This document shows, in pieces, positions 1 to 45,680 of a stretch of 64,000 nt of DNA (the first letter of the stretch is position 1; each line of letters opens with the position of its first letter). The stretch covers positions 1 through 64,000 of the forward strand of contig WAPX01000059.1 in NCBI GenBank assembly GCA_015520485.1. Direction: 5' to 3'. Below the pieces are notes generated by a model that saw only the letters and a list, made by a program, of their open reading frames with translations, was not told the origin of the DNA and did not search any database. This DNA comes from Archaeoglobaceae archaeon. GTDB taxonomy: Archaea > Halobacteriota > Archaeoglobi > Archaeoglobales > Archaeoglobaceae. A program made the translations under genes and the position numbers.

Positions 1-27
1 AAACGTCCTGATCTTCATGACACCCAT
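1..27 (-). CDS. Possible start of a gene running off the left edge
   Basis: Read on the minus strand, an ATG at 27 is preceded by GGTGGTGGG (complement of 31-39), a good Shine-Dalgarno site, and nine codons (MGVMKIRTF) stay open to the edge. An AT-rich TATA-like stretch lies near 62-72. Too little is visible to name it. It follows the hydA terminator region on the same strand, so it could be a separately transcribed downstream gene. Confidence 0.4.
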
Positions 28-104
28 ATTCCCACCACCAAGTATTACCTTTAGAAGTACTGAATATAAAATTTTCTTACTAATTGCTACATGATTAATT
101 GCTA

Positions 105-135: not shown

Positions 136-2037
136 TTATGAATTAGTCTTCAATTCTTTGGATCTATCCACATACTTCGTGTGAAGAAGTTCGTGGGACT
201 TCTCACTGATTGGATGTTCAAAGAATTCTTTATACATCTGCTGGATTTCTGGGTTCTCGTGGGATTTCCTGAGCGGTAGCTGCCTGTCGTGAGCGGTCAG
301 AGCGTCTACTCTCGCCTTGATCCTCTCAAAGTTCGTTGGTAACGGCTGTCCACCGCCTCCAATACATCCACCGGGACACGCCATGAACTCGATAAAGTGG
401 AACTTTGCAAACTCTCCTCCGTTTCTGATGGACTCACAAACCTTCCTCGCATTTCCAAGACCGTGTGCAACTGCCACGTTTATTTCCTTGCCATTGAGCT
501 TTATCGTGGCGACCTTTATGCCATCCAGCGTTTCGAGTTCCTCCCACTCGAGCTTCTGTAACGTTTTACCGGTAATCAACTCATACGCAGTTCTCAGGGC
601 GGCTTCCATAACTCCACCGGTTCTTCCGAATATGGCAGCTGCTCCGGTGTACTTTCCAAGCAACGTGTCTGGCCCCTCGTCTGGTAGTTTGGTTATGTCT
701 ATTCCCGCCATTCTGAGCAGCTTTGCGAATTCTCTCGTTGTGATCACAATGTCCACGTCGGGGAACTTCGGCGTATCCTCCGGAATGTGTCCGTTCTCTT
801 TCAACCACTCCCAGGCACTGCACATTTCCTCTCTCGCTCTCTCAAATTTCTTGGCTGTACACGGCATTATCGAGACGACGACTACCTTTCTCGGGTCAAT
901 TCCGAGCTTTAACGCTGCATAGGTCTTGGCAGTTGGGCCAAACATCTGCTGTGGGGATTTACAGCTCGATATGTTCGGAATCAGGTCGGGGAAGAACGTT
1001 TCACAGAACTTGATCCACCCCGGACTGCAGGAAGTGAACTGGGGCAATGTGTCCGAGACTTTTTCGAGAATTTCGTCCCTTATCTCTATTCCCTTGACGT
1101 CCTCTTTGCTTATGATTCCCGCCTTAATCAGCCTGTAGATAAACTCCGTCCCTTCTTCCATTATAGTTTCATCTGCTCCGAAGTTCGTATCCCAGATCCT
1201 GTCAAACCCCAGTCTTCTCAGAGCGGCGTATACCTTGCCCACGACAATTTCACCCGGTGGCAGTCCAAATTCCTCTCCAATGCTTACTCTGATGGATGGA
1301 GCAAACTGGACAACCACATACTTCTCCGGATCTTTCAGAGCTTCCCAGACTTTCATTGTGTTGTCGACTTCTCTCATCGCTCCAAGAGGTCTCGAATACG
1401 GGCAGAGTTCGCAGCCGTAGAATTTCTTGAAAATCTTAACCTCTTCAGTCTCAAGTCCCATCGGACAGGCGTGTATGCACTGCCCGCACCTCGTGCACCT
1501 CGCTTCGTCAATCTGGATTATACCTCTCTCCTCGTCAAAGCTCAGAGCTTCCACAGTCTGAACGGACTTGCACGTTTCGATACAGTTCTTGCACCTTATG
1601 CAGAGCTGGGGGTCGTACAGTATCGATGGCTCAGAAACCCAGCCCTCAGAGGTGCTTTTCTTTCTTTCTTCCAGAGAGATAAACCCTGCGTTCTCCGCTT
1701 CGACAGCAACGAATTCTTGCAGAAGCCTTACGAGATAACACTCCTCTTTTTCTTTTAACCAGTTGAGTCTTTCGGTAAGTTTTTCTTCAATCTGTTTTGA
1801 TTTTGTATTTATAACCATTCCGTCTTTAACCTTCAGCTGTTTCAGGGTCTTGGGATTTACGATGTTTCCGTCAACTTCGGCTATGTTGAGCAGTGGGCAA
1901 TCCTCGTTTCTTATGAACTCGAGCTGTGGAACTTCGAATGGTCTCCAGAAGCCTATTCCCTCACTTTTCATCATGTCGTAAACAGTTGCCCCTTCTTCAG
2001 CCTCAATCTCCTTTCCATCAAAAACGACTTTAACCAT
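136..2037 (-). CDS. hydA: [FeFe]-hydrogenase catalytic subunit (HydA-like)
   Basis: Catalyses reversible H2 oxidation at an H-cluster. All three H-cluster signatures are present: L1 TSCSPGW (residues 335-341), L2 MPCTAKKFE (391-399) and L3 FMACPGGCIGGGGQP (551-565). Two ferredoxin-type [4Fe-4S] motifs precede them (C146/149/152/156 and C181/184/187/191), then an extra CELC (209-212). Residues 1-80 keep a beta-grasp ferredoxin-like pattern but only one Cys (C47), so the N-terminal [2Fe-2S] cluster is gone, as are the His/Cys ligands normally found near residue 100. The second Cys of the common TSCCP is Ser; TSCSP also occurs, as far as I recall, in bacterial multimeric enzymes. Last gene of hdrA-hdrC-hdrB-mvhD-hydA, 4 bases after mvhD, with GGGGTGA upstream of the ATG. 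Function by family is near certain; partnership with Hdr is inferred from the operon. Confidence 0.95.
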   Translation of the reverse strand: MVKVVFDGKEIEAEEGATVYDMMKSEGIGFWRPFEVPQLEFIRNEDCPLLNIAEVDGNIVNPKTLKQLKVKDGMVINTKSKQIEEKLTERLNWLKEKEECYLVRLLQEFVAVEAENAGFISLEERKKSTSEGWVSEPSILYDPQLCIRCKNCIETCKSVQTVEALSFDEERGIIQIDEARCTRCGQCIHACPMGLETEEVKIFKKFYGCELCPYSRPLGAMREVDNTMKVWEALKDPEKYVVVQFAPSIRVSIGEEFGLPPGEIVVGKVYAALRRLGFDRIWDTNFGADETIMEEGTEFIYRLIKAGIISKEDVKGIEIRDEILEKVSDTLPQFTSCSPGWIKFCETFFPDLIPNISSCKSPQQMFGPTAKTYAALKLGIDPRKVVVVSIMPCTAKKFERAREEMCSAWEWLKENGHIPEDTPKFPDVDIVITTREFAKLLRMAGIDITKLPDEGPDTLLGKYTGAAAIFGRTGGVMEAALRTAYELITGKTLQKLEWEELETLDGIKVATIKLNGKEINVAVAHGLGNARKVCESIRNGGEFAKFHFIEFMACPGGCIGGGGQPLPTNFERIKARVDALTAHDRQLPLRKSHENPEIQQMYKEFFEHPISEKSHELLHTKYVDRSKELKTNS

Positions 2038-2041
2038 AAAG

Positions 2042-2464
2042 TCACCCCTTCAGAGGATTTGGTCCCAACTTCCTGATGGTGGCGTCAAATTCCTTCATGA
2101 CCTCCGCAAACTTCAAACCCTCAGAACCGCTTATCCACTCCAGTCTTACTCTCTCGGGCTCGATTCCGAGCTCTGATATGATCTCTTTGAGCCACTCATA
2201 CCTCTTCAGAGCCTTGGAGTTACCGTCCTTGTAGTGACAGTCTCCGGGGTGACACCCACCAATTAGGACTCCATCAGCACCGTTGAACAGAGCTTCAAGA
2301 ACGAACTCTGGCTCAACTCTACCACTGCAAGGAACTCTGACCACCTTCACTGTTGGAGGATAGGAATACCTCAGGCTTCCTGCAAGGTCTGCTGCCTGAT
2401 AGGTACACCAGTTACACGCAATAACTACGATGTTGGGCTCCCACTCTTCGCTTACTTCGCTCAT
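2042..2464 (-). CDS. mvhD: MvhD-type [2Fe-2S] electron-transfer protein
   Basis: A small iron-sulfur protein that in methanogens wires the [NiFe] hydrogenase MvhAG to HdrA. Visible cysteines fit the family: C17 and C20 (ACNWCTYQAADLAG), C46 (VPCSGRV), C71 and C76 (GGCHPGDCHY). At 140 residues it has the usual size. It overlaps the hdrB stop by four bases (ATGA) and is followed at once by hydA. Here no mvhA or mvhG is seen; the [FeFe] subunit takes their place, so this protein probably carries electrons between HydA and HdrA. Family assignment is strong, the rerouted role is inferred. Confidence 0.92.
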   Translation of the reverse strand: MSEVSEEWEPNIVVIACNWCTYQAADLAGSLRYSYPPTVKVVRVPCSGRVEPEFVLEALFNGADGVLIGGCHPGDCHYKDGNSKALKRYEWLKEIISELGIEPERVRLEWISGSEGLKFAEVMKEFDATIRKLGPNPLKG

Positions 2465-3420
2465 CTTTTACCACCCTCCAGAATCCTTTTAATTATCTCG
2501 TCTCTCGGCGTAACGCAGACTCCGGCCACCTGCTGGGGGTCAAAACCCATGCATATTGCGAGAAGCTGGACGTAGTGAAGAACGGGAATTGAGAAGTTTA
2601 TCTTTCCTTCCTTTCTGAGTTTTTCCTGAACGTCATCAAACTGAATCGTGCATGAGCTGCAACCGGCCACTATGAGGTCGGCGTCGAGCTCCTCTTTTAT
2701 GCACTCGAGCTTGTCTTTTGCAAGAGCAAACGATTTCTCAGGATCTGTGCTCCTCAAAGCACCTATTCCACAGCAGTCTATGAGTTTTGTGTAGTAGGGC
2801 GCTTCTGCTCCTAAGGCTTCGCAGAGCTCTCTCAGAACAACAGGATTGAACGGGTCCTTTTCCTTGTCCGGATATACTTCGGAGGGCCACAGGAAGTGAC
2901 ATCCCGGCTGGACGGCTATCGTAAGTCCGTCGAGAGTGTACTTTATAGACTCCCTGATCTTTTCCAGACCTATGTCCTTGTACAGAACCCATGCTACGTG
3001 CCTGCACTTGGCTTTTCCCTCGTATTTCTTTCCTATTTTTGCGAGGATTTCGTTAACACCGTTCATAATTTCGGGATTCTTCAGCATCTTGTGCCTTGCT
3101 TCGTTCAGGCTTGCGTAGCAGGTGTTACAGGCTGTCATAAGGTCAATTCCCTTTTCCTCGCCCAGACAGAGGTTTCTCGCCGCCACAGCGCACCAGCCAA
3201 CATCGTCAATGGACGGCATCGTCCCCCAGGTCGGGCAGCACGACTGACCTGCCAGATCGTCCAGTTCAACACCTAAAGCCGGAAAGATCTTCCTCATCGC
3301 CTGCTCAACATCAGGCCTGTTAAATGTAATGTTGCAACCCAAAAACAATCCAAACTTGAGTTTTTTCTCTTCATTTTCGTTTACGGTTTCAGCCTCCGAA
3401 ACCATAGCTTCCGAAACCAT
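2461..3420 (-). CDS. hdrB: Heterodisulfide reductase subunit B (HdrB)
   Basis: Holds the two CCG domains that bind the non-cubane [4Fe-4S] clusters which cleave disulfides. By my count the motifs are CX31CCX35CXXC (around QSCC and CNTC) and CX41CCX36CXXC (around DCCG and CSSC). The N-terminus has a 15-base tandem duplication giving MVSEAMVSEA before the conserved fold begins at KFGLFLGCN. The GAGGTGG site before 3420 supports the upstream ATG. Archaeoglobales are not known to make CoM-S-S-CoB, so the disulfide substrate is unknown; DsrC (42516-42866) is one candidate. Nine bases after hdrC. Confidence 0.93.
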   Translation of the reverse strand: MVSEAMVSEAETVNENEEKKLKFGLFLGCNITFNRPDVEQAMRKIFPALGVELDDLAGQSCCPTWGTMPSIDDVGWCAVAARNLCLGEEKGIDLMTACNTCYASLNEARHKMLKNPEIMNGVNEILAKIGKKYEGKAKCRHVAWVLYKDIGLEKIRESIKYTLDGLTIAVQPGCHFLWPSEVYPDKEKDPFNPVVLRELCEALGAEAPYYTKLIDCCGIGALRSTDPEKSFALAKDKLECIKEELDADLIVAGCSSCTIQFDDVQEKLRKEGKINFSIPVLHYVQLLAICMGFDPQQVAGVCVTPRDEIIKRILEGGKR

Positions 3421-3429
3421 AAAACCACC

Positions 3430-3996
3430 TCACCCCATGGGTATCAGACCGAGCTCGGCAAGCTTGGTGTTCTTCAAAATCGTTTTGAGCTCCTGAAGAG
3501 CTTTTTCATCAGAATCCGTTGTGGGCGGTTTTTCGGGTAAACCAACTTTTTTCCTCGCTTCTCTGCCAGTCATGTAAACTGCGTGACCGTGCTCGTACAG
3601 ACTCCTCAAGCCTTCAATTGTAAGTGTTGGGAGAGCGAAGTCCTCAACCATGAGCCTTCTCATTGCCAGCATAACTTCAAACGGTGTGACGTTTCTCGGA
3701 CAGATTTCCGTGCATCTGTTGCAGGCTACGCATGCCCAAGGCGTCATGTCGTCCAGAAGCTCTTCTCTCATACCCACAAGTATTGCCTTGATGAGCTTCT
3801 TGTTGTACCACTCGAAGCCAGTTCTTGCGAGAGGGCAGATAGAAGCGCAGGCTCCGCACTGCATGCATGCCATCAGATTTTCCGCTCCGAACTCGATTAT
3901 GAGTTTTGAAACTTTCTCCTCAAACTCCTCTTTTTCTCTTTCCGCTACCTCGGTTAGATTGATAACAGGGGGAACGCCTTCTTCTGCAAGTTCCAT
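3430..3996 (-). CDS. hdrC: Heterodisulfide reductase subunit C (HdrC)
   Basis: An electron-relay subunit between HdrA and HdrB with two [4Fe-4S] clusters. The motifs CMQCGACASICP (near residues 44-55) and CVACNRCTEICP (near 91-102) are both complete. The 188-residue length fits the family. A strong GGAGGTG site precedes the ATG and the gene starts 3 bases after the hdrA stop, so the genes are co-transcribed. The rest of the protein is mostly helical, as expected for an HdrC that docks on HdrB. Confidence 0.93.
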   Translation of the reverse strand: MELAEEGVPPVINLTEVAEREKEEFEEKVSKLIIEFGAENLMACMQCGACASICPLARTGFEWYNKKLIKAILVGMREELLDDMTPWACVACNRCTEICPRNVTPFEVMLAMRRLMVEDFALPTLTIEGLRSLYEHGHAVYMTGREARKKVGLPEKPPTTDSDEKALQELKTILKNTKLAELGLIPMG

Positions 3997-3999
3997 CGA

Positions 4000-6105
4000 T
4001 TACACCTCCACAACCTTTTTAGCAGCAATAGTTCTGATTTGAGCGAGCACCTGTTCGTACGTGAAGCCGTGCAGCGTTATTGCCTTGCTCGGACACGCTG
4101 CAGCGCAAACGCCGCATCCCTTGCAGAGCGTTTCATTTATCTTTGACTTCCTCGCGCCGTTAACCTCCACGAGCGTTATTGCGCCGTAGGGGCAGAGGTT
4201 CTCGCAAATACCGCACCCAATGCACTTCTCCTGATCAACCTCTGAGATGAGCGGTTCGACCTTCATTTTACCCGGAGCGAGCAACGACATGGCTGAAGCT
4301 GCAGCAGCCTTGGCCTGAGCCACGGAGTCCGGAATGTCCTTGGGACCCTGAGCGCAACCGCAGATGAATATACCCTCTGTCATCGTGTCAACGGGATACA
4401 GCTTGGTGTGCCTCTCTTTCAGGAAACCTTCCGCACCAACACTGATGCCGAGTTTTCTCGCCAGTTCTTTCAGGTCCATGTTTGGCTCCATAGCCGTTGC
4501 GAGAACGACTATGTCGGAAATGAGCTCCACAGGCTTGCCAAGTTCGGCATCGTATCCCTTTACGAGCAACCTCTCGTCCGGCAGCCTCTGCACGCCTCCA
4601 ATCTTGCCCTTGATTATCTTGATTCCTAGCTTCCTGCACCTCATGTAGTACTCGTCGAAGTCCTTTCCGGGTGTTCTGACGTCTATGAAGGAGATGTATA
4701 TCTCCAAGTCCGGATACTTCTCCTTCAGCAGCATCGCCTGCTTTAGCATGTACATACAGCAAACCTTGGAACAGTAGGTGTGATACCTCTCGTCTCTCGA
4801 ACCAACGCACGACACAAACGTGATTACGTGTGGTTTTCTCGCCTCAAGTTCGGCTTCTTTACCCTTCTCGATCTTCTTCTTCCATTCAAGGTACTTGGGT
4901 ATGTCAGAAGGAACGATAAGCTTACCCTCAGTCGGGCCAGTAGCAGAAATCAGCCTTTCCATCTGCAGAGCTGTAATGACGTTCGGGCTGTCGGGAGCGT
5001 ACTCCTTGAAGTGCTTCTTGTCCATAACTCTGTAACCGGTAGCAACGACTATAGACCCAACGTTCAGCTCGATAAGCTCACCATTCGGATCTCTCGGCTC
5101 ATCCCTGCTGCAAGCCCCAGTTGGACAGACCTTCTCACACGGAGCCAGAATCGGCTTTCCGTCCTTGGTCTTCCTCGGCTCCTCACCGAACCACCTTCCA
5201 CTACACCTTATGCACGCATCTGGGTCGATTACAGCCTTCTTTGGCACAGCCTGCGGGAAGGCTATGTATATCGCTCCCCTCATGTTCAGTCCCTCGTTGT
5301 ATTCGTCCGGCACTCTCGCCTTTGGTGGACAGACGTTGAGACAAGCACCGCAGCCTGTGCACTTGTTCCAGTCAACGTAAGTCTGCTTCTTTCTGACCTT
5401 TACCTTGAAGTTACCAACCGTTCCATCTACAGACTCCACTTCAGCGTAGGTTATTAGCTCGACGTTGGGGTGGTTGGCAACTTCGACCATCAGCGGTGTA
5501 AGAATACAGGCAGAACAGTCGTTTGTTGGAAAAGTCTTGTCAAGCTTGGCCATGTTTCCTCCGATTGACGGCAACTTCTCGACCAGATAAACCTTAAAGC
5601 CGGCGTTTGCCAAGTCTAAAGCTGCAAAGATTCCCGCTATACCTCCTCCAAGCACCATCACGTCCTTGTTCAGCTCTATGTAACGATCCTCTAAGGGTTC
5701 GAGCAGTCTCGCTTTAGCTACAGCAGCAGCCACAAGCAGCTTAGCTTTTTCCGTGGCTTTCTCCTTCTCATGCCAGTGCGCCCACGAACACTGATCTCTG
5801 ATGTTTGCCATTTCGAAGTAGTACTTGTTCAAACCTGCATCTTCACACGCCTTTCTGAATATTGGCTCGTGGGTTCTCGGTGTACAGGCAGCCACCACGA
5901 CTCTGTTCACAAGCCCTTTTCTGATATCCTCCTTGATTATCTCCTGTCCGGGATCGGAACACATGAAAAGGTAATCTCTTGCCACAACGACATCGGGCAG
6001 TTTTTCTGCGAATTTCCTGACCTCTTCAACGTTTACTGCTCCAGCTATGTTCTCTCCACAATGGCAGATGTATACCCCAATTCTGGGTTTGTTCTCCGCT
6101 GTCAT
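4000..6105 (-). CDS. hdrA: Heterodisulfide reductase subunit A, flavin/iron-sulfur (HdrA)
   Basis: The FAD subunit that, in methanogens, bifurcates electrons from H2 or formate to ferredoxin and a disulfide. Order of elements: N-terminal HdrA domain with GVYICHCG; FAD-binding VMVLGGGIAGIFAALDLANA (about residue 150); an inserted iron-sulfur region with CTGCGACLNVCPP and further Cys; the YCSKVCCMYML segment; and two C-terminal ferredoxin motifs, CIGCGICENLCP and CKGCGVCAAACP. No in-frame TGA, hence no selenocysteine. The start at 6105 is chosen over a GTG or TTG a few codons upstream because GGTTGGTGGG lies 4 bases before this ATG. First gene of the hydrogenase operon and divergent from hydG. 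Confidence 0.94.
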   Translation of the reverse strand: MTAENKPRIGVYICHCGENIAGAVNVEEVRKFAEKLPDVVVARDYLFMCSDPGQEIIKEDIRKGLVNRVVVAACTPRTHEPIFRKACEDAGLNKYYFEMANIRDQCSWAHWHEKEKATEKAKLLVAAAVAKARLLEPLEDRYIELNKDVMVLGGGIAGIFAALDLANAGFKVYLVEKLPSIGGNMAKLDKTFPTNDCSACILTPLMVEVANHPNVELITYAEVESVDGTVGNFKVKVRKKQTYVDWNKCTGCGACLNVCPPKARVPDEYNEGLNMRGAIYIAFPQAVPKKAVIDPDACIRCSGRWFGEEPRKTKDGKPILAPCEKVCPTGACSRDEPRDPNGELIELNVGSIVVATGYRVMDKKHFKEYAPDSPNVITALQMERLISATGPTEGKLIVPSDIPKYLEWKKKIEKGKEAELEARKPHVITFVSCVGSRDERYHTYCSKVCCMYMLKQAMLLKEKYPDLEIYISFIDVRTPGKDFDEYYMRCRKLGIKIIKGKIGGVQRLPDERLLVKGYDAELGKPVELISDIVVLATAMEPNMDLKELARKLGISVGAEGFLKERHTKLYPVDTMTEGIFICGCAQGPKDIPDSVAQAKAAAASAMSLLAPGKMKVEPLISEVDQEKCIGCGICENLCPYGAITLVEVNGARKSKINETLCKGCGVCAAACPSKAITLHGFTYEQVLAQIRTIAAKKVVEV

Positions 6106-6607
6106 GCATCCCACCAACCAGTGCTTATTATCTAAAATACTGTAATGATTACTGCCATCTTTTTAGTTTTGCAATATACTACAAAAATCTTTTGGAGGGG
6201 GTGAAAATGTTCGCCAGAACGATAATCGAACATTAATAATTAGCCAAGCCAATAATTAATAGACTAAAAACAGAAACTGAAAGTATATAAATCTGTTCAG
6301 TAATTCTGTCATTGCGACATATTTGCAGGATAATTAAAAAAACTTGGGAAAAATTGATGATAATAATGAAAATGATAATAAAAGTATTTCCAGATCTTCG
6401 ACAGATAACGTATTTTTCTTAAAACTTATTAACTATCTACCTCAGAATGCTACCTGTAGTTCGAAAAAACAACGTTTTCGCTTATCCAGACTGTATGGAC
6501 AGTTAGGCAGGCACAAATTGTGAGAAAAGTTAATATCGACGTAGCTACAGAAGTTGTTGCTGTAGTTGAGGATACCGGATATTACGTTACTTCTGGTGGT
6601 GGTTTGA
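6106..6607. promoter_or_regulatory. Divergent control region between hdrA and hydG
   Basis: About 500 AT-rich bases separate the hydrogenase operon from the maturation operon. On the plus strand a good TATA box (TATATAAAT, 6284-6292) with a purine-rich BRE-like element would give a leader of about 300 bases before hydG. Minus-strand TATA candidates for hdrA are at 6172-6180 (AGTATATTG) and 6131-6140 (GTATTTTAGA). hydG has a clear GGTGGTGG site before its ATG. No sizeable gene is supported here; only a 9-codon ORF (6207-6236). Shared control of both operons is inferred. Confidence 0.5.
6207..6236 (+). other. Nine-codon ORF with a perfect Shine-Dalgarno site
   Basis: ATG at 6207 follows GGAGGGGGTGAAA, the strongest ribosome site in the intergenic region, and encodes MFARTIIEH then TAA. 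It may be a leader peptide, the start of a deleted gene, or chance. It lies before the TATA box at 6284, so it would belong to a transcript starting further upstream. Confidence 0.3.
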
Positions 6608-8152
6608 ATGAGTACTGCAATTGCCACACCTGTAAGTGTAGAGGACTGGTTTGAAAACTTGCCTAGGAAAATAAGAGAGTGGATGGAAGAGAGAATAAAC
6701 CCGGAAGACGACTACACGAAGTACATGAAGGACGGCAGAGACTTTATAGACGAGCACAAAATCTGGAAAACAATAAAGGAGAACAGGGACGCCACGCCCC
6801 ACAGAGTTAGAATGATTATAGACAAAGCTCTTTCGACCAAGGAATGCTTAGAGCCGGAAGAAGTTGCCACGCTTTTAAACGTTAAAGACGAAGAGCTCTG
6901 GAAGGAAATTTTTGAGGCTGCCGGTGAAGTTAAGAGAGCCGTTTACGACAACAGAATCGTTACGTTTGCACCGCTCTACTGCTCAAACCTCTGCGTTGGT
7001 AACTGTCTGTACTGCGGGTTTAGAAGAGACAACAGAGTCGTAAAGAGGAAAAGGCTTTCGCTTGGAGAAGTCAGGAGAGAAGCTGAAATTTTAGCGGGAA
7101 TGGGTCACAAACGTTTGATAACATCGTACGGCGAACACCCGCTTTCGGATGCTAACTACATTGCAGACACTCTCAAAACGATATATAGCGTCAGGGTTAA
7201 AGCCAAGAAAGGCTGGGGGGAAATAAGAAGGGTAAACGTGAACGCAGCGCCCATGACAATCGAAGAGCTTGAAATGCTCAAAGAGATAGGTATTGGAACG
7301 TTTCAGGTTTTTCAGGAAACGTACCACCACGAAACGTACTACAAGGTCCACCCTTCAGATACGATAAAGGGCAACTACCACTGGAGGCTGTACTGCATGC
7401 ACAGAGCGCTTGAAGCGGGAGTTGATGATGTCGGCATTGGCGTTTTGCTTGGCCTGTACGACTGGAGATTTGAAGTCATGGGACTACTAATGCACTCCAA
7501 GGACTTAGAAGAGCAGTTTGGCGTAGGCCCTCACACTATATCCTTCCCGAGACTAAGACCGGCTGCAAATACACCGTTCGTTCAGGAAGCGAAGTACAGT
7601 GTATCCGATGAAGACTTCAAGAAGTTCATAGCAGTTGTCAGACTTTCCGTACCCTACACGGGCATGATCCTGACGGCAAGAGAGCCAGAGCACATAAGGA
7701 GGGAAGTCATTCCACTGGGCGTAACCCAGACCGATTTCGGCTCGAAAATAGGTATAGGTGCGTACAGCGATAGTTACACGAAACAGGAAGCAGAAAGACA
7801 GCAGTTCCTACTTGGAGACACCAGAGAGCTTGACGAGGGGATAAGATGGCTGGCTGAGATGGGCTACATCGTTTCGTTCTGTACGGCAGGTTACAGATGC
7901 GGAAGGACGGGAACCAAAATCATGAAGCTCCTCAAAACCGGTAAGGAGAAAGTATTCTGCAAGTTGAACGCCGTGCTGACGTACAAGGAGTACCTCGAAG
8001 ACTTTGCGAGCGAGGAGACGAAAAAGGTGGGTGAGCAGATCGTACAGAAAGAGATAGAGGAGATCAAAGAGCTCGTCCCCGAGAGGGTGTTTAAGAAGTT
8101 CTTGGAATACCTGAACAGGATCGAAAATGGGGAAAGAGACCTATACTTCTGA
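6608..8152 (+). CDS. hydG: [FeFe]-hydrogenase maturase HydG, tyrosine-cleaving radical SAM
   Basis: HydG cleaves tyrosine and builds Fe(CO)2(CN) synthons for the H-cluster. The radical SAM motif CX3CX2C is at C129, C133, C136 (CVGNCLYC), and the ETYHHETYYKVHP segment holds the His that in known HydG binds the dangler iron. The C-terminal auxiliary cluster motif, normally CX2CX22C, reads CTAGYRCGRTG: C425 and C451 stand in the usual places, but the middle Cys is Gly428, with a new Cys at 431. The rest of this region (GRTG, NAVLTYKEYLEDFAS) is typical. First gene of a tightly overlapping unit; the next ORF starts 26 bases before its stop. Confidence 0.95.
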   Translation: MSTAIATPVSVEDWFENLPRKIREWMEERINPEDDYTKYMKDGRDFIDEHKIWKTIKENRDATPHRVRMIIDKALSTKECLEPEEVATLLNVKDEELWKEIFEAAGEVKRAVYDNRIVTFAPLYCSNLCVGNCLYCGFRRDNRVVKRKRLSLGEVRREAEILAGMGHKRLITSYGEHPLSDANYIADTLKTIYSVRVKAKKGWGEIRRVNVNAAPMTIEELEMLKEIGIGTFQVFQETYHHETYYKVHPSDTIKGNYHWRLYCMHRALEAGVDDVGIGVLLGLYDWRFEVMGLLMHSKDLEEQFGVGPHTISFPRLRPAANTPFVQEAKYSVSDEDFKKFIAVVRLSVPYTGMILTAREPEHIRREVIPLGVTQTDFGSKIGIGAYSDSYTKQEAERQQFLLGDTRELDEGIRWLAEMGYIVSFCTAGYRCGRTGTKIMKLLKTGKEKVFCKLNAVLTYKEYLEDFASEETKKVGEQIVQKEIEEIKELVPERVFKKFLEYLNRIENGERDLYF

Positions 8153-8429
8153 GTTTTCCGGAGAATTTCTGGACGAGCTCGCCCGAATATCCGAAGAAGT
8201 CAGAAAGAAGTACGGAGTGTGCGTCTGGTTTGCAGAAATCTTGGGGAGGAGATGGTCATACATAGCGGGAGAGAAGGGTGAAGAGGACATATTCATGCCC
8301 CCGCACAGAGTTCAGCTTGGAGAGAGGTTAGGAGCTGTCATAGAATGTGGAGATCTACCTGAGGAAAAGATAAACGAAATCGTGTCGTTTTTGAAGAAAA
8401 AGGTTGAAAAAAGGGTTGAGATTCCATGA
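8127..8429 (+). CDS. Small unknown protein between hydG and hydF
   Basis: A 100-residue protein whose start overlaps the hydG end by 26 bases and whose stop overlaps the hydF start (ATGA). I do not recognise the family. It has one Cys pattern only (GVCVWFAE), a WSYIAGEKGEED segment, and a Lys/Glu-rich helical C-terminus (EEKINEIVSFLKKKVEKR). It does not resemble my recollection of the TM1266-type ACT regulators found in bacterial hyd operons. The tight overlap on both sides argues that it is real and works with HydG or HydF, but no function can be stated. Confidence 0.8.
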   Translation: MGKETYTSEFSGEFLDELARISEEVRKKYGVCVWFAEILGRRWSYIAGEKGEEDIFMPPHRVQLGERLGAVIECGDLPEEKINEIVSFLKKKVEKRVEIP

Positions 8430-9652
8430 AAACTCCCCGTTCTCTCAGACTGCACATAGGCATTTTTGGAAGGAGAAACGCCGGAAAGTCGACGCTCATA
8501 AACGCTCTGGCTGGAAAGGAGATAGCAGTGGTCTCAAATGTGGCTGGAACGACAACAGATCCCGTACTTTTCGATGCTGAAATAGGAAACGTTCCCGTCA
8601 CATTTATCGACACTGCAGGGATAGACGACACAGGTGAACTCGGAAAGATGAGGATAGAGAGAACTCTGGACATCCTGAGCAAGGTTGACGTTGCTCTGCT
8701 GATGGTAGATGCAACGAAGGGCTTTGGAGATTACGAGAGAAACCTTGTAAAGATTTTCAAAGAAAACAAGACCAAGTTCATCGTCGTTGTTAACAAGATA
8801 GATTTAGCTGACTACGATGACGATGAGCTCAGGAAGTACAGGCTCGTCAAAATCAGTGCAAAAAAGGGGGTGAACGTAGACAGATTGATTGACATGATGC
8901 TTAAAATCTCTCCGGACATAGATGATTCTCAGTTTTTAGACGATTTGATAGAACCGAAAGACCTTGTTATGCTGAACATACCCATAGATCTTGGTGCTCC
9001 CAAGGGAAGACTCATCTACCCACAGGTTCAGGCCATAAGAAACATACTCGACATAGGGGCTTCCTGCATAGTCGTCAAAGAGAGGGAGCTGAAGTGGGCG
9101 TTTGACGGGTTGAAGAAAAAGCCAAAGATGGTCATAACAGACTCCCATGCGTTTACAAGAGCTGCAGCAGACACACCTGAGGACGTTTCGCTCACGAGCT
9201 TTTCCATACTTGATGCCAGATTCAAAACTGGCGATCTGCCCGAGCTCATCAGAGGGCTGTCTCAGATCAAAAAGTTGAAGCCCGGAGACAGAGTGCTGGT
9301 TGCTGAAGCCTGCACTCACCACCCCTCACCAGACGACATAGGCAGGGTGAAGATACCGAGGTGGATTCGAAACATAGCTGGAGATGTCAAATTCGATCAC
9401 GTGATGGGCGGAAACTTTCCTCCCGATTTGTCCAGGTACAAATTGATAATTCACTGCGGAGCCTGCACGCTTACGAGAAGGCACATGAGGTACAGGCTGA
9501 AGAAAGCACTCGACAGCGGAGTTCCTGTGACGAACTACGGATTGGTGATAGCATTCGTTCACGGAATACTGCCGAGAGCCATAAAGATGTTTCCAGACGC
9601 CATGAAAGCGTGGAAGAAGTATTTCGATGGTTATGAAAGAAGTTGTGCGTGA
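8426..9652 (+). CDS. hydF: [FeFe]-hydrogenase maturation GTPase HydF (copy 1)
   Basis: The scaffold on which the diiron subcluster is assembled and then passed to HydA. N-terminal GTPase: P-loop GRRNAGKS (15-22), GTTTDPV, DTAG, NKID. Central dimerisation region around SHAFTRAAADTPEDVSLTSFS. C-terminal [4Fe-4S] site with C296-T-H-H (CTHHPSPDD) and HCGAC (343-347), matching the known CxHx(about 45)HCxxC pattern. DIGRVKIPRW and the NYG segment are also typical. About 408 residues, normal for the family. Overlaps its neighbours at both ends, so it is in the hydG operon. Confidence 0.95.
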   Translation: MKTPRSLRLHIGIFGRRNAGKSTLINALAGKEIAVVSNVAGTTTDPVLFDAEIGNVPVTFIDTAGIDDTGELGKMRIERTLDILSKVDVALLMVDATKGFGDYERNLVKIFKENKTKFIVVVNKIDLADYDDDELRKYRLVKISAKKGVNVDRLIDMMLKISPDIDDSQFLDDLIEPKDLVMLNIPIDLGAPKGRLIYPQVQAIRNILDIGASCIVVKERELKWAFDGLKKKPKMVITDSHAFTRAAADTPEDVSLTSFSILDARFKTGDLPELIRGLSQIKKLKPGDRVLVAEACTHHPSPDDIGRVKIPRWIRNIAGDVKFDHVMGGNFPPDLSRYKLIIHCGACTLTRRHMRYRLKKALDSGVPVTNYGLVIAFVHGILPRAIKMFPDAMKAWKKYFDGYERSCA

Positions 9653-10925
9653 GATGTTCTCGCTCGTAAAAGCGCACCACGATTTCATAAATTCGGCAAT
9701 TCCCTTAATAGCAAGTGAGAACGTCACGAGTCTGGCGGTTAGAAACGCTCTGCTGAGCGATTTTCAGCACCGCTACGCTGAAGGTTTGCCCGGACAGAGG
9801 GTTTATGCGGGCTGCGAGTTCATAGACAGGATAGAGCTGAAAGCGATTGAGCTCGCTAAAGACGTTTTTGATGTCGAACACGTAAATGTTCAGCCCACTT
9901 CCGGCAGCGTGGCAAACCTCGCCCTTTACTCCGCCTTTACAGAACCGGGAGATACAGTTGTTGCACTCAGCATTAAAGACGGCGGACACATAACGATGAA
10001 CAGGGTTGGATTAGCAGGTAAACTCGGTCTGAACGTTATCGCATTTCCTTTCGACAAACAAGAAATGAACATAGACGTCGATAGAGCTGAAAGGGTTATC
10101 AGAGAAGCTGAACCTGAGCTCGTACTTTTCGGAGCGAGCGTGTTTTTATTCCCCCACCCGGTTGAGGAGTTGAGAGACGCTGCAAAAGAGGTCGGAGCTG
10201 TAATTGCTTACGATGCGAGTCACGTTCTGGGACTCGTAGCTGGAAAGCAATTTCAAAATCCGGTGAAGGATGGAGCTGACGTCGTTACCTCTTCAACGCA
10301 CAAAACGTTTCCCGGTCCCCAGCACGGAATGGTGATGTGCAGGGCGGAGTTTGCAGAAGCGATAGACAGAGCCGTTTTTCCCGGAGTGCTGAGCAACCAC
10401 CACCTTCATAGCGTCGTGGCACTGGCTATTGCCCTCTGCGAGATGAAGGCATTTGGCAGAGATTACGCAGAGCAAACGGTTAAGAACGCAAAGGCTCTCG
10501 CTGAAGCACTCGCAGGCGAAGGGCTCAGAGTCGTTGCGGAACATAAGGGTTACACGGAATCGCACCAGGTTCTCGTGGATTTAATTCCATCCGGCTTAAG
10601 CGGGCTTAAAGCGGAAAAAATGCTCGAACAGGCCGGAATACTGGTGAACAGAAATCTGCTTCCGTGGGATAAGGAGAGGGGAAGGAACTTTAGAGACCCC
10701 TCCGGAATAAGAATTGGTGTTCAGGAAGTTACAAGGCTGGGTATGGAAGAGGACGACATGAAGGACATAGCCCGGTTCATCGCAGACGTTGTGTTTGAGA
10801 GAAAGAACGTCAGAGAAGTTTCCAGAGAGGTCGCAGAATTCAGAAAGGAGTTTACGAGAGTTGAATACTCCTTCGACAGGGGAGATGCGTACCGCTGGCA
10901 GGAGTTATGGAGCTTGGAAGAATAG
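9627..10925 (+). CDS. glyA: Serine hydroxymethyltransferase (archaeal type) in the maturation operon
   Basis: A PLP enzyme that converts serine and a tetrahydropterin (in these archaea H4MPT) into glycine and methylene-pterin. Visible signs: N-terminal IPLIASENV, HRYAEGLPGQRVYAG, the PTSGSVANLA region, and the PLP-lysine motif SSTHKTFPGPQHG (Lys near residue 229). At 432 residues it is full length. It overlaps hydF by 26 bases, and the next gene overlaps it by 19. Bacterial work has traced the H-cluster aminodithiolate bridge to serine, so an SHMT here may supply its carbons; this is an inference. It could also be the housekeeping glyA placed here by chance. Confidence 0.9.
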   Translation: MVMKEVVREMFSLVKAHHDFINSAIPLIASENVTSLAVRNALLSDFQHRYAEGLPGQRVYAGCEFIDRIELKAIELAKDVFDVEHVNVQPTSGSVANLALYSAFTEPGDTVVALSIKDGGHITMNRVGLAGKLGLNVIAFPFDKQEMNIDVDRAERVIREAEPELVLFGASVFLFPHPVEELRDAAKEVGAVIAYDASHVLGLVAGKQFQNPVKDGADVVTSSTHKTFPGPQHGMVMCRAEFAEAIDRAVFPGVLSNHHLHSVVALAIALCEMKAFGRDYAEQTVKNAKALAEALAGEGLRVVAEHKGYTESHQVLVDLIPSGLSGLKAEKMLEQAGILVNRNLLPWDKERGRNFRDPSGIRIGVQEVTRLGMEEDDMKDIARFIADVVFERKNVREVSREVAEFRKEFTRVEYSFDRGDAYRWQELWSLEE

Positions 10926-14028: not shown

Positions 14029-15462
14029 TCAATCCCTGTACTCCCTGCTGACGATCTTCCTGTCGACTTTACCCTCTCCAGCAACTCCCGGCTTTACGAG
14101 TTCCTGCGGCGACAGCAAAACCTCAAGCTCTTCCTCGCTGAACAGCCCCTTTTCAAGCAAAACTTCTCTGATCGTCTTACTCTTCGTAACTGCTTCCTTT
14201 GCTATCTCAGCCGCTCTGTCGTATCCGAGGTAAGGTGCCAGAGGGGTGATCAGAGCCGGACTCCTCTCCAGATACATCCTGCACATCTCTTCATCTGCCT
14301 TAATTCCTCTTACGCACTTCTCGATCATGACCTCAACGGCATTTGTCAGTATTTCGAGTGATTCGAGCATGTTGTGAACTATTAGAGGTGCTAAAGCGTT
14401 TAGCTCGAGTTGTCCGTGTGCGGATGCCATGTTTAAGGCAACATCGTTGGACATCACCCTGATAGCAACCTGCTTTACGCACTCCAGTATGACCGGGTTG
14501 ACCTTTCCGGGCATTATCGAAGAGCCGGCCTGAACGGGAGGCAGTCTAATCTCTTTAAACGCGCTCATCAGTATCAGGTCGTTTGAAATCTTGTAGAGGT
14601 CTACCGCCAGAGCCTTGAGAAGTCCGTGCACCTCGACGAACACGTCCCAGTTCTGGGTTGGATCCACCAGATTGTCAGCTTTGGCCAGATTTAAGCCCGT
14701 GATGTCTCTCAACCTCTGGATGACCAGATGTATGTACCTCAGATCAGCGTTCAAACCCGTGCCCACTGCAGTTCCACCCAGATTTACCTGTCTTAACCTC
14801 TCCTCAACCTTGTACAGCCTCCACCTGTCTCTGGCTATCGCTTCGGCGTAAGCGCTGAACTCCTGACCGAGCGTGATTGGCACAGCATCCTGCATTTCCG
14901 TTCTTCCGAGCTTAAGAACTCCCGCAAACTCCCTTTCCTTGTCCTCCAAAGCCTGCTGAAGCTCACCAACTACTGCAGTTAGCTGTCTCAGCAGAGATAT
15001 GGCTGCAATTCTTGCAGCGGTTGGAAAGGTGTCGTTTGTCGACTGCATCTTGTTGACATCGTCGAGCGGATGCACTTTTTTACCCAGAATTTCACTCGCA
15101 CGATTCGCTATTACCTCGTTTACGTTCATGTTCAGCGAAGTTCCCGCTCCTCCCTGAAACGGATCGACTACAACATGGTCGTGCCATTTTCCTTCGATCA
15201 GCTCATCGCAAACCTGAACTATTGCCCTGGCCTTGTCCTTATCAAGGTGTTCGAGCTGCATCAGGGATAAAGCACACGCTTTTTTAACCATTGCAAAAGC
15301 TCTTATCAGCTCGGGATGGATTCTGTACCCTAGTCTAACGGTGATGGGAAAGTTTTCTCTGGCTCTCGCTGTGTGAATGCCGTAGTAAACATCAGCCGGA
15401 ATCTTCTTCTCACCCAGAAAGTCCTTCTCAACCCTCAATACTTCCACGCGTTTGCCGGACAT
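14029..15462 (-). CDS. aspA: Aspartate ammonia-lyase
   Basis: Releases ammonia from aspartate to give fumarate. It belongs to the fumarase/aspartase superfamily by the signature GSSIMPGKVNP. LGRTEMQDAVPITLGQEF and DPFQGGAGTSLNMNVNEV look like aspartase rather than fumarase. 477 residues, full length. The start overlaps the end of hydF2 by 28 bases. aspA genes are known in bacterial hydEFG clusters, and the ammonia may become the bridgehead nitrogen of the H-cluster azadithiolate; that role here is inferred from context. Confidence 0.9.
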   Translation of the reverse strand: MSGKRVEVLRVEKDFLGEKKIPADVYYGIHTARARENFPITVRLGYRIHPELIRAFAMVKKACALSLMQLEHLDKDKARAIVQVCDELIEGKWHDHVVVDPFQGGAGTSLNMNVNEVIANRASEILGKKVHPLDDVNKMQSTNDTFPTAARIAAISLLRQLTAVVGELQQALEDKEREFAGVLKLGRTEMQDAVPITLGQEFSAYAEAIARDRWRLYKVEERLRQVNLGGTAVGTGLNADLRYIHLVIQRLRDITGLNLAKADNLVDPTQNWDVFVEVHGLLKALAVDLYKISNDLILMSAFKEIRLPPVQAGSSIMPGKVNPVILECVKQVAIRVMSNDVALNMASAHGQLELNALAPLIVHNMLESLEILTNAVEVMIEKCVRGIKADEEMCRMYLERSPALITPLAPYLGYDRAAEIAKEAVTKSKTIREVLLEKGLFSEEELEVLLSPQELVKPGVAGEGKVDRKIVSREYRD

Positions 15463-16694
15463 ACCTTTGTCCTCCGAGACAAAAATTCGTAGGGAATATC
15501 TCCAACCTCAACACCTTCAAGCACCATCTTTTCGAGGGGGAACGGATCGAGGAACCTGCTGAGGTACCCCTTGAGGTAACACGCAGACAGGCCAATTGTT
15601 GTTACGCTTCCCCCCTTTTCTTTTACGTACTCAATCCTTTCGAGCATTTCATCCCTCCTCAGCCTGCAGGCGTTGCAGTGAATCACGAGCTTTTGATTGC
15701 TGTAATCCTCGATATCGCCGAATTCCACAGCGCACCCCTTCTTTTTCAGCTCTTCAACAACGAAATCTGTCCAGAAATCGTCTGGATCGTTCCTGTCCTC
15801 GCAGCACTGAACGACGAGAACCCTATCACCTCTGCTCAAGTCGTCCATAACTCTCACTCCCTTTATGAAAGCCGTCAGGTCGCCCATGTATCTCGCTTCA
15901 ATGACTGAAAACGACGTCAGAGGAGTATCTGGAATGTATGCGTTCTCAAAAGCCCTTGTATCTACAACTGTCAGGCTTATTTCTCTGTCCAGATAGTCCA
16001 GAGTTTCCTTAACGTTGTCCTCTCTTGCGATGACGCAGTACGCATCCTGATCTATCGTTTCCCTGAAAGCCCTGACCCAGATAAGCGGGAGCCTTCCCTT
16101 TGGGAACCTTATTTCCCGGGGGAACACGTAAAGTACAGCTTCTCCTCCCCTGCACAGGTCTGCAACGAGTGGAACTTCCTGATCAGCCGGAGCTCTGGGG
16201 ACTATTTCTCTCTTCAGCGTGATCAAACCCTCTCTCGTCTTCGCACTGACCTTTACAAAGGGAATGTCGTACTTCTTCGCGAGTTCAGCGATGTCTTCGT
16301 CGGATACCTCCTTTAGATCTATCTTGTTTACAACTCCAATTACGGGAATTCCGAGTTCCTTTGCCCTCTGTATTACTTTCTCTTCAAATTCCAGACCCTC
16401 ATCGAGCCTCGTGGCGTCTACTACAAGTAAAGCGAGATCCACGTCTTTCAAAACCTCTAAAGCCTTCTCAACTCTTTTCGTTCCAAGCTCACTGACGTCA
16501 TCCAGCCCTGCTGTGTCTATGAGCGTGACGGGACCTAAAGGGAGCAACTCCATTGATTTGGAGACGGGATCCGTCGTCGTACCGGGAACGTCAGACACTA
16601 TTGCAATGTCCTGATTCGTCAACGCGTTTATCAGACTCGATTTGCCGGCGTTCATCCTGCCAAAAATGCCGATTTTCGTCCTGAAACCCTTCAT
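15435..16694 (-). CDS. hydF2: Second HydF-type GTPase, altered cluster site
   Basis: A 419-residue HydF paralogue. GTPase motifs are complete: GRMNAGKSS, GTTTDPVSKSMEL, DTAGLDD, NKID. The middle region keeps DTRAFENAYIPDTPLTSFS. At the C-terminal cluster site CTHH of HydF is replaced by CCEDRND, so both His are lost, whereas HCNAC is retained; three or four Cys are still available as ligands. The GTPase part looks closer to typical bacterial HydF than copy 1 does, while the C-terminus is more diverged. First gene of hydF2-aspA-cofE-DHPS. A TATA-like GTTAAATTT lies near 16,717. It may be a partner, a carrier, or a maturase for another enzyme. Confidence 0.88.
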   Translation of the reverse strand: MKGFRTKIGIFGRMNAGKSSLINALTNQDIAIVSDVPGTTTDPVSKSMELLPLGPVTLIDTAGLDDVSELGTKRVEKALEVLKDVDLALLVVDATRLDEGLEFEEKVIQRAKELGIPVIGVVNKIDLKEVSDEDIAELAKKYDIPFVKVSAKTREGLITLKREIVPRAPADQEVPLVADLCRGGEAVLYVFPREIRFPKGRLPLIWVRAFRETIDQDAYCVIAREDNVKETLDYLDREISLTVVDTRAFENAYIPDTPLTSFSVIEARYMGDLTAFIKGVRVMDDLSRGDRVLVVQCCEDRNDPDDFWTDFVVEELKKKGCAVEFGDIEDYSNQKLVIHCNACRLRRDEMLERIEYVKEKGGSVTTIGLSACYLKGYLSRFLDPFPLEKMVLEGVEVGDIPYEFLSRRTKVCPANAWKY

Positions 16695-34411: not shown

Positions 34412-35176
34412 TCACGACTTTACGGATTCCAGACTCGCCTTCAGAGCGTCCATGAGCGATTCGGCGGCCTCGACCTCCTCACTTATCCTGACCTCCTTAC
34501 CCGCAAGTTTGGCGTCTATCAGCTTTATCAGAGCTTCCTTGTACTCGTCTCTGAACTCTTCGAGCCTCAGCGGCTTCTTCATGGCTATTACAAGCTTTTT
34601 CGCGAGCTCCAGCTCTTCTTCACTCACGTCAACTGACACTCCCCAGCCCGGTATTTCTTCGGGATTTCTTATCTCATCGATGTAGTGCAGCTTTGCAAGC
34701 AGAATACCTCCGTCAAAAGCTCTCAGCGCTATCAGGTTTTCCCTGCCCCTCATTCCAACCTTTCCAAGAGCCATGCTCGACGTTTCTCTCATCGCCTCCC
34801 TGAGCAGGTAGTACGCTTTTTCACCACCCCTGTCCGGGACGAGGTAGTAGAATCCGCTGTAGTAAATCAGGTTCAACTCAGACGGATCAAAGAACTGCTT
34901 TATTTCAAGATTTTTGACCGATTTAAGCGGTATCTTTTCAAAGTCCTCATCCGTGAGAATTACGTATTCGTTCTTGGAGATCTGGTATCCCTTTACGATT
35001 TCATCGTTTGAGACTTCCTTTCCGCACTTTTCGCACACCTTTCTGTACCTTATTCTGCCACCGTCTGCAGAGTGCAGGAGTGTGAACTTCACCTCTTTTG
35101 TTACAGTTGCCGGGTACATTTTGACGGGGATACTGACGAGCCCGAAGCTTATCGACCCCTTCCAGCTCGCCCTCAT
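34412..35176 (-). CDS. ku: Ku protein of prokaryotic non-homologous end joining
   Basis: Homodimeric ring that binds DNA ends and recruits a ligase. About 254 residues, bacterial-type size: RASWKGSISFGLVSIPVKMY at the start, KVCEKCGKEV zinc-like pair, SMALGKVGMRGRENLIALR and an E/K-rich C-terminal helix. ATG 35176 is preceded by GGTG; a GTG two codons upstream is possible. It lies 130 bases after a DNA ligase on the same strand, forming a minimal NHEJ pair. Confidence 0.94.
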   Translation of the reverse strand: MRASWKGSISFGLVSIPVKMYPATVTKEVKFTLLHSADGGRIRYRKVCEKCGKEVSNDEIVKGYQISKNEYVILTDEDFEKIPLKSVKNLEIKQFFDPSELNLIYYSGFYYLVPDRGGEKAYYLLREAMRETSSMALGKVGMRGRENLIALRAFDGGILLAKLHYIDEIRNPEEIPGWGVSVDVSEEELELAKKLVIAMKKPLRLEEFRDEYKEALIKLIDAKLAGKEVRISEEVEAAESLMDALKASLESVKS

Positions 35177-35305
35177 GTACACCAGTCTGTTCTAACAGGT
35201 TATAGAACTTTTGAAGTGCTCTGGAGCTGCATTTATATTTAATCAGTTATTGAGCGCTGCACCAATTTGCAGGTTAAAACAGAATACGGCCTGCAGGTAA
35301 CATAA

Positions 35306-36307
35306 CTAAACGGGCAGACATTCCTCAACGCTCTTGTCGTTTCTCAACCTGACGAAAACAGGAGCCCTGAGTTTTCCATCTCCGGTTTCCTCGAGAAACT
35401 CCACCTCGCAGACGTATACGGGTTTAACCCAGTGAACTCTCCTTTTGAACCCGGGCAGTTTTTCGATGTTGTTAAACTTCTCAACCTCTATTTCCCTGAG
35501 TCTGTCGTAAAACCAGTCTATAAATTCTCTTGTAAAACCCGTCCCCACCTGTCCTGCGTGAACGAATTTTCCGTCGTCGTAAAAAGCCAGAACGAGAGAA
35601 CCGAACTTCCCCTCTCTTTCACCCTCCCCCTCAAGCCAGCCGACAACAACACAATCAGCTGTGTTTCTTTTTTTTAGTTTTAACCACAGACTGCTCCTTT
35701 TTCCGGGAATGTATGGACTTCCAAGTTTCTTCGCCATGATTCCTTCAAGACCCATGTCGATTGCTTTTCTGTACAGTCTCTCCCCAGCACAGTTTCCGCC
35801 TGTAAAGGTTTCGGATACCGTACACCTCCTCGCTTTTTCCGTGATTTTTTCGAGGATTTCCTTTCTTTTCTCAACAGGCTTGCTGATCATCCAGCCCCTG
35901 CAGTCTTTGCCGGCGTTGACAGAGCTGTAAAGAACATCAAAAGCAATGTAAACGGCTGGTATTTTCCTGGAAAGAATTTCAATTTTCATCCTGCTGTCAA
36001 CGTGCTCTCTCTGCTGCAGCAGCTGGAAGGAGGGTTTGCCTTCCCTGAAAACCACGATTTCTCCGTCGAAAATGGCACTGGTTTTTGAGAAGTCGAGCAG
36101 GCTTTCGACGAGCTCCGGATACCTGTAAGCTATTTCCAGAAGCCTCCTGTTCTGCAGTCTCACCCTTTCCCTGTCTGTATCCACGAAGGCTATGCACCTC
36201 GTTCCGTCCCACTTCACCTCGTAGAGCCACTCTTCGCTATCGAAAGGTGAGCTTTTCATAGCGAGCATCGGTTTTATTCTGGCTGAGAACCAGTCTTCAG
36301 AAACCAT
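35306..36307 (-). CDS. ligD: ATP-dependent DNA ligase, LigD type
   Basis: Seals DNA breaks using ATP. 333 residues: the adenylation motif EVKWDGTR has the nucleophilic Lys32; later FDGEIVVF (motif III), EGIMAKKLGSPY (motif IV) and WLKLKKRNTADCVVVGW (motif V). The C-terminal OB-fold follows. No polymerase or phosphoesterase domain is attached, as in archaeal split systems. GGGTGG before the ATG and a TATA box at 36331-36340. Gene partner is Ku downstream. Confidence 0.93.
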   Translation of the reverse strand: MVSEDWFSARIKPMLAMKSSPFDSEEWLYEVKWDGTRCIAFVDTDRERVRLQNRRLLEIAYRYPELVESLLDFSKTSAIFDGEIVVFREGKPSFQLLQQREHVDSRMKIEILSRKIPAVYIAFDVLYSSVNAGKDCRGWMISKPVEKRKEILEKITEKARRCTVSETFTGGNCAGERLYRKAIDMGLEGIMAKKLGSPYIPGKRSSLWLKLKKRNTADCVVVGWLEGEGEREGKFGSLVLAFYDDGKFVHAGQVGTGFTREFIDWFYDRLREIEVEKFNNIEKLPGFKRRVHWVKPVYVCEVEFLEETGDGKLRAPVFVRLRNDKSVEECLPV

Positions 36308-42515: not shown

Positions 42516-42866
42516 TTAGACACAGCCAGTTGGCTTCGGAAGTCCAGCAATCCTACAGGCGTCCTTAGCCGGACCCTGTGGGAACAGCTGATACAGGTAC
42601 TCCAGTGTACCCTTCTCTTTACCAAAAGTCTTCTTCATGTGTTTAACAACAAGTCTTATGGGTGGAGCTACACCATACTTAACAAAGTAGTCTCTCAGGT
42701 ATTCAATAATCGCCCAGTGATCCTCCGTCAGCTCGATTGGCTGCGGGCTAAATCTCGTGTCCTTCGCAAGAGCTTCAGCCACTTCTTTGTCCCATTCTTC
42801 CCAGTCCTGCAAAAATCCGTCCTCGTCAAGGGTCAGTTTCTTTCCTTTTACTTCCAATTCCGGCAT
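42516..42866 (-). CDS. dsrC: DsrC sulfur-trafficking protein
   Basis: Carries a trisulfide between sulfite reductase DsrAB and membrane reductases. 116 residues with FLQDWEEWDKEVAEALA, LTEDHWAIIEYLRDYF and the C-terminal arm CRIAGLPKPTGCV holding both conserved cysteines, so it is a true DsrC and not only a TusE relative. GAGGTGG before the ATG. Monocistronic here; supports a sulfate- or sulfite-reducing ancestry. Confidence 0.95.
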   Translation of the reverse strand: MPELEVKGKKLTLDEDGFLQDWEEWDKEVAEALAKDTRFSPQPIELTEDHWAIIEYLRDYFVKYGVAPPIRLVVKHMKKTFGKEKGTLEYLYQLFPQGPAKDACRIAGLPKPTGCV

Positions 42867-45357: not shown

Positions 45358-45359
45358 CG

Positions 45360-45623: not shown

Positions 45624-45650
45624 TGTTAAAAAACAGACAGATCAGAAACG

Positions 45651-45660: not shown

Positions 45661-45680
45661 GTGTATTCAATATAATTACT

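Follow-up and report, generated by a model that had tools for sequence, protein, structure and literature searches.

An hdrACB-mvhD-hydA1 operon in an Archaeoglobaceae archaeon

We analyzed a 64,000-nucleotide stretch of DNA (the window; positions 1 to 64,000 of the forward strand of contig WAPX01000059.1, assembly GCA_015520485.1) from the genome (1.57 Mb, 99.96% complete) of an Archaeoglobaceae archaeon that probably lives at deep-sea vents. Reading of the open reading frames (ORFs) places a minus-strand operon at 136-6117, in the order hdrA-hdrC-hdrB-mvhD-hydA1, which joins genes for heterodisulfide reductase (Hdr) subunits and the connector MvhD to a gene for an [FeFe]-hydrogenase, HydA1. 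By coordinate, the genes are:

136-2037, minus strand: HydA1, 633 amino acids; Fe_hyd_lg_C (PF02906, 1e-87) and Fe_hyd_SSU (PF02256, 1.4e-23); TIGR02512 at 451.7 bits against a cut-off of 405.95
2042-2464, minus strand: MvhD, [2Fe-2S] connector from the input dehydrogenase to HdrA; FlpD/MvhD (PF02662, 2.5e-53); PDB 5odc_D, 3e-48
2461-3420, minus strand: HdrB, disulfide-reducing subunit; PF02754 (CCG) twice, 3.6e-30; TIGR03288, 4e-79; PDB 5odc_B, 2e-65
3430-3996, minus strand: HdrC, two [4Fe-4S] clusters; TIGR03290, 2e-31; matches HdrC of PDB 7bkb and 5odc
4000-6117, minus strand: HdrA, 705 amino acids from a TTG at 6117, with an ATG start at 6105; NCBIfam HdrA2, 4e-243; best PDB match HdrA of 8rvu, 1e-208, full length

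Successive genes are separated by 3 (hdrA/hdrC), 9 (hdrC/hdrB), -4 (hdrB/mvhD) and 4 bases (mvhD/hydA1), and purine-rich stretches lie ahead of the start codons. ORFs and family matches agree with an earlier, sequence-only reading of this DNA, which had described five minus-strand genes for HdrA, HdrC, HdrB, MvhD and an [FeFe]-hydrogenase with gaps of nine bases or less. All four Hdr and MvhD proteins match chains of the methanogen Mvh-Hdr, Fdh-Hdr and Elp-Hdr complexes (5odc, 7bkb and 8rvu) over their full length, with the cluster ligands aligned. HdrA is a flavoprotein that keeps the flavin adenine dinucleotide (FAD) domain and the Fe-S ligands in the alignment with 8rvu HdrA, and is the proposed site of bifurcation. 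HdrB has two CCG cysteine-rich (noncubane cluster) motifs, whose cysteines align to those of 5odc_B, and falls below the TIGR03288 equivalog cut-off for heterodisulfide reductase acting on the coenzyme M-coenzyme B heterodisulfide (CoM-S-S-CoB; 266 bits versus 345). Judged by these features of HdrA and HdrB, the genes encode a predicted Hdr-MvhD electron-bifurcating core.

HydA1 has the motifs of a group A [FeFe]-hydrogenase

HydA1 carries a C-terminally fused small subunit and is predicted to hold two [4Fe-4S] clusters and the H-cluster, the motifs of which read TSCSPGW, MPCTAKKFE and EFMACPGGCIGGGGQP. With all three motifs in place, as the earlier reading had claimed, and a score that passes the group A model TIGR02512, HydA1 is by sequence a true group A [FeFe]-hydrogenase. 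We asked whether the serine of TSCSPGW marks HydA1 as inactive or as a sensor. This was ruled out, and the serine is not a defect, because the bifurcating HydA1 of Acetobacterium woodii (7q4v) has it too, as do several HydABC-type enzymes of bacteria.

In an alignment, HydA1 lacks the N-terminal [2Fe-2S] and His-Cys3 cluster ligands retained by its bacterial HydA relatives, and it fails the NCBIfam model for group A6, the bifurcating type dependent on reduced nicotinamide adenine dinucleotide (NF040763; 597.6 bits versus a cut-off of 765). No genes for HydB or HydC (NuoF/NuoE-like) are present in the operon, to which the search for them was confined. Given the missing N-terminal ligands and the lack of HydB and HydC genes alongside, we conclude that HydA1 is not a HydABC-type enzyme. 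An AlphaFold2 model of HydA1 (eight sequences) was mediocre, with a predicted local distance difference test score of 63 and residues 97-223 unreliable, and recovered only HydA folds, 8a6t first.

The hydrogenase gene occupies the position of mvhGA in related operons

A search for the [NiFe]-hydrogenase large subunit (PF00374) that was positive in 34 of 40 genomes found none anywhere in the window genome, nor in two less complete genomes, G004 (68%) and G005 (76%). The claim that MvhAG, the [NiFe] pair of the methanogen enzyme, has left no trace here thus extends from the window to the genome; a hidden [NiFe] partner, such as an mvhAG encoded elsewhere and pairing with this mvhD, is ruled out.

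Three genomes from sister genera (G012, G022 and G016) carry the operon as hdrA-hdrC-hdrB-mvhD-mvhG-mvhA, with the families confirmed. Identity to the window proteins is 82-91% for HdrA, 76-92% for HdrC, 81-89% for HdrB and 84-90% for MvhD, and mvhG-mvhA occupy the exact position of hydA1. Among species of the same genus as the window, mvhGA lies 2.2 kb downstream of the Hdr-MvhD core in G002, is on another contig in G001 and G003, where the core stands alone, and the core of G005 is found behind the formate dehydrogenase genes fdhA and fdhB. The G005 locus (L046:2243-9587), with fdhA-fdhB directly before hdrA-hdrC-hdrB-mvhD, is a formate version of the same core. Collectively, these arrangements point to one Hdr-MvhD core with three alternative electron-input modules in the genus and its sister genera, and suggest that archaea exchange the front end of the HdrABC-MvhD enzyme with the core retained. 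The hydrogenase swap put forward in the sequence-only reading, in which the Hdr-MvhD module is kept, is supported at the gene level by mvhGA at the hydA1 position in orthologous operons and by the absence of [NiFe] genes.

The [FeFe]-hydrogenase catalytic domain was detected in 6 of the 59 Archaeoglobi genomes, which fall into two genera. Window HydA1 and the maturase HydG are closer to their counterparts in G012, of another genus, than to those of congeners, and for the window Hdr core the nearer relatives are G005 and G022, the latter of another genus, with G001-G003 more distant; internal support in these single-gene trees was weak. Given these different nearest relatives, local exchange between genera probably took part in the history of the operon. 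We also noted that in G012 a gene for an HdrB-like protein (L028:9446-10228) directly precedes hydA1. The protein is shortened, its first cysteine-rich motif is degenerate, and the gene may be left over from an older Hdr-HydA operon.

The same junctions are present in a second species

Since hydA1 is at the end of the contig, which stops 135 bases past the gene, we considered that an assembly or binning artefact had fused a bacterial hydA to archaeal hdr genes. This we regard as barely conceivable. The HydA1-MvhD-HdrBCA arrangement recurs, at 96-98% identity and with identical junctions (L033/L039), in G004 (contig JALVYA010000083), an independent assembly from a second species, where the order hydA1-mvhD-hdrB-hdrC-hdrA followed by the divergent hydG-small ORF-hydF-glyA matches the window at 91-99% protein identity. 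In addition, translations on the window contig include archaeal ribosomal proteins, the base composition of the contig is uniform, and [FeFe]-hydrogenases are found in six Archaeoglobaceae genomes. The earlier reading had named a chimeric contig as a result that would undo it; the G004 assembly rules this out. Import of the whole HydA-Hdr operon from bacteria was likewise rejected, as its Hdr genes are orthologues, at 80-91%, of those in Archaeoglobaceae operons. No HydA-Hdr neighborhood was found in the plasmid collection searched, which is a poor sample of anaerobes.

Between the window species and G004, nonsynonymous divergence (dN) is about 0.01 and synonymous divergence (dS) 0.2-0.7 for hdrA, hdrC, mvhD and hydA1. 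The low dN relative to dS indicates strong purifying selection, and the four genes are therefore presumably functional.

DsrC is the favored disulfide acceptor

The sequence-only reading had left the disulfide substrate of the operon as unknown. The window contig carries a candidate:

42516-42866, minus strand: DsrC, PF04358 (1.6e-41); TIGR03342 at 153 bits against a cut-off of 53.5; both C-terminal cysteines present (DACRIAGLPKPTGCV)

The dsrAB genes are not adjacent to dsrC and are found on another contig of the same genome (C46). No mcrA was detected in the window genome or the genus, which rules out CoM-S-S-CoB as a likely acceptor. With dsrAB and dsrC present and mcrA absent, DsrC or a similar protein disulfide is more likely to be the acceptor than CoM-S-S-CoB. 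The earlier description is thus narrowed to a probable DsrC-type disulfide. For Archaeoglobus, a model of Mvh:Hdl (PMC3949148) has H2 coupled to ferredoxin and to a disulfide, and lets DsrC carry the disulfide toward sulfite reduction.

A proposed bifurcating enzyme and its alternatives

The operon, the cofactor ligands, the lack of a [NiFe] large subunit and the presence of mvhGA at the matching position in orthologous operons are direct observations. For the physical complex, electron path, bifurcation, acceptor and physiological direction, we infer the following. Structures of Hdr complexes show MvhD, or the homologous ElpC, as the link between exchangeable donors (MvhAG, FdhAB and ElpAB) and HdrA; the Elp donor substitutes for Mvh under nickel limitation (PMC12350162). 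HydA1 would be a further exchangeable donor, passing electrons to HdrA via MvhD. One electron would then reach the noncubane clusters of HdrB by way of HdrC and serve to reduce a disulfide, for which DsrC or some other protein disulfide is the likeliest candidate; the other would reduce ferredoxin. Use of HydA1 for MvhAG would remove the nickel requirement of H2 use. In our judgment from sequence, the product of the operon is probably a soluble electron-bifurcating H2:disulfide/ferredoxin oxidoreductase, with HydA1 taking the place that the [NiFe] pair MvhAG has in Mvh:Hdl and Mvh-Hdr.

The main alternative is that HydA1 is a stand-alone ferredoxin-dependent hydrogenase, merely co-transcribed with hdrACB-mvhD, which would share a ferredoxin pool with an Hdr core fed by another dehydrogenase, for example formate dehydrogenase. 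Several observations weigh against a bifurcating complex and toward this alternative. HydA1 is solitary in the congeners G001, G002 and G003 (76-79% identical, with the same domain make-up), where it is located beside hydG or other genes. It therefore did not arise as part of Hdr, and may function by itself; judged by this distribution, HydA1 predates its joining to the Hdr core. The core adjoins fdhAB in G005, of the same genus, and a donor such as FdhAB may serve the window core as well. Finally, no MvhD substitution is specific to the pair of species in which MvhD is linked to HydA, so no co-adaptation of the interface is seen, and HydA-specific co-adaptation of MvhD was dropped as a candidate. 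We nevertheless consider a stand-alone enzyme unlikely. In the sister genera mvhGA occupies the very position that hydA1 holds here, fifth in a tightly spaced operon; MvhD, known to link a dehydrogenase with HdrA (PMC12350162), is under strong selection; and the genome retains no [NiFe]-hydrogenase that could supply the core.

A variant compatible with the proposed bifurcating complex is that the same enzyme runs in reverse, confurcating electrons from reduced ferredoxin and a dithiol to H2, as an electron outlet in organotrophic growth. Group A [FeFe]-hydrogenases often evolve H2, and H2 uptake could be taken over by the neighboring twin-arginine-type HydA2-HydB-cytochrome b system described below. 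The corresponding Mvh:Hdl of Archaeoglobus, however, is modelled as H2-consuming (PMC3949148). Sequence cannot settle the direction, and we consider the reverse reaction rather unlikely.

A second hydrogenase and maturation genes adjoin the operon

Further genes associated with the hydrogenases were found around the operon:

1-50, minus strand: contig-end overlap, an exact 50-bp match to the start of contig C33 (hydA2-hydB-cytb-hydE)
6608-8152, plus strand: HydG, H-cluster radical S-adenosylmethionine maturase, divergent from hdrA; TIGR03955 at 481 bits against a cut-off of 312
8127-8429, plus strand: small ORF between hydG and hydF, 100 amino acids, no family match; a counterpart after hydG is seen in relatives
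8426-9652, plus strand: HydF, H-cluster maturation GTPase; TIGR03918 at 494 bits against a cut-off of 326
9627-10925, plus strand: GlyA, serine hydroxymethyltransferase, overlapping hydF; NF000586 at 495 bits against a cut-off of 335
14029-15462, minus strand: aspartate ammonia-lyase family enzyme, paired with the second HydF; NF008909 at 639 bits against a cut-off of 510
15435-16694, minus strand: second HydF-family GTPase; TIGR03918 at 358 bits against a cut-off of 326

The 50-mer is unique in the genome, occurring only at the left ends of C33 and of the window contig (C59), whose start coincides with window base 1, just 135 bases past hydA1. Joining C59 and C33 leaves 108 nt between the hydA1 stop codon and the first ATG of hydA2. 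C33:24-3739 (L003) encodes the HydA2 large subunit, a separate small subunit with an RRTFLK twin-arginine motif and a formate-dehydrogenase-gamma-like cytochrome b, followed by hydE. HydA2 is probably part of an exported H2-uptake enzyme. With HydG and HydF in the window and HydE on C33, the set of maturases is complete, and the joined island carries two [FeFe]-hydrogenases together with the full maturation set. In G002, the genes for HydA2, HydG, HydF and GlyA likewise share one region with the Hdr-MvhD core.

The overlap of glyA with hydF is also seen in G004 and G002, and a role of GlyA in supplying the H-cluster bridging ligand would fit. The gene for the second HydF-family GTPase overlaps that for aspartate ammonia-lyase, and the pair is retained in G002. 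In G012 (L034:8104-9700), the open frame for the N-terminus of HydA2 is lost, giving a pseudogene-like sequence, near a same-strand gene for an HdrA-MvhD fusion.

Elsewhere in the window, translations suggest neighboring Ku-like and LigD-like DNA ligase ORFs (34412-36307), a bacterial-style end-joining pair in an archaeon, and Cas1-like and Cas6-like ORFs (44389-46406).

Comparison with known systems and significance

The closest known system is Mvh:Hdl, in which MvhADG is combined with HdlABC; it has been described in A. profundus, and a model exists for A. fulgidus (PMC3949148). It comes from the same family and has the same HdrACB-MvhD core, whereas the window operon has HydA1 in place of the [NiFe] MvhGA. 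HdrA, HdrB, HdrC and MvhD of methanogen HdrABC-MvhAGD (5odc) are homologous over their full length, including cluster ligands; in contrast, the window hydrogenase is [FeFe], and methyl-CoM reductase is missing, so that CoM-S-S-CoB is an unlikely acceptor. The Fdh-Hdr (7bkb) and Elp-Hdr (8rvu) complexes dock different donors on the same Hdr core through MvhD or ElpC, and G005 has the Fdh version, but the window donor is a hydrogenase unrelated to FdhA, ElpA or MvhA. Bifurcating HydABC of A. woodii, T. kivui and T. maritima likewise has a HydA catalytic subunit (TSCSPGW is common to A. woodii HydA1) and ties H2 to a bifurcation module. The predicted module of the window, however, is based on HdrA and FAD rather than on HydBC and flavin mononucleotide, with no NuoE/NuoF-like genes in the operon and the N-terminal [2Fe-2S] and His-Cys3 ligands lost.

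[FeFe] enzymes were long thought absent from archaea. Archaeal [FeFe]-hydrogenases have since been reported in Greening et al. 2024, as cited in PMC11406978. The window operon has in common with these an [FeFe]-hydrogenase in an archaeon. The archaeal hybrids among them reportedly join [FeFe] with [NiFe] subunits and not with an Hdr-MvhD core. No description of an Hdr-[FeFe] operon was found in the literature searched, which did not cover Greening et al. 2024, a survey that may list Archaeoglobi sequences. Our scan of other genomes for HydA-Hdr operons was narrow (two peptide patterns), with bacteria and other archaea thinly sampled, and such operons may exist there too.

Hdr-based flavin bifurcation is central to methanogenesis and to much anaerobic respiration, and the known Hdr front ends are [NiFe]-hydrogenase, formate dehydrogenase and the Elp proteins that oxidize reduced coenzyme F420. 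In the window operon, an input module of a new class appears to be joined to the Hdr-MvhD bifurcating core already known; with [FeFe]-hydrogenase as front end, a further, nickel-free class would be added, in archaea. Taking the loci together, we lean, with some reserve, toward a wider proposal: one core has been fitted with three unrelated front ends ([NiFe], formate dehydrogenase and [FeFe]), and the window species would be free of [NiFe]-hydrogenases by virtue of two [FeFe]-hydrogenases, the first supplying electrons to the Hdr complex, the second exported and linked to a membrane cytochrome b. The result would be an H2:DsrC/ferredoxin bifurcating enzyme that needs no nickel and has not been described before. 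As the same core is paired with different front ends in close relatives, the question of how MvhD accepts unrelated donors becomes directly testable with nearly identical cores. The operon also suggests an engineering route to nickel-free, H2-driven reduction of ferredoxin, and a probable source of electrons for DsrC when archaea reduce sulfate.

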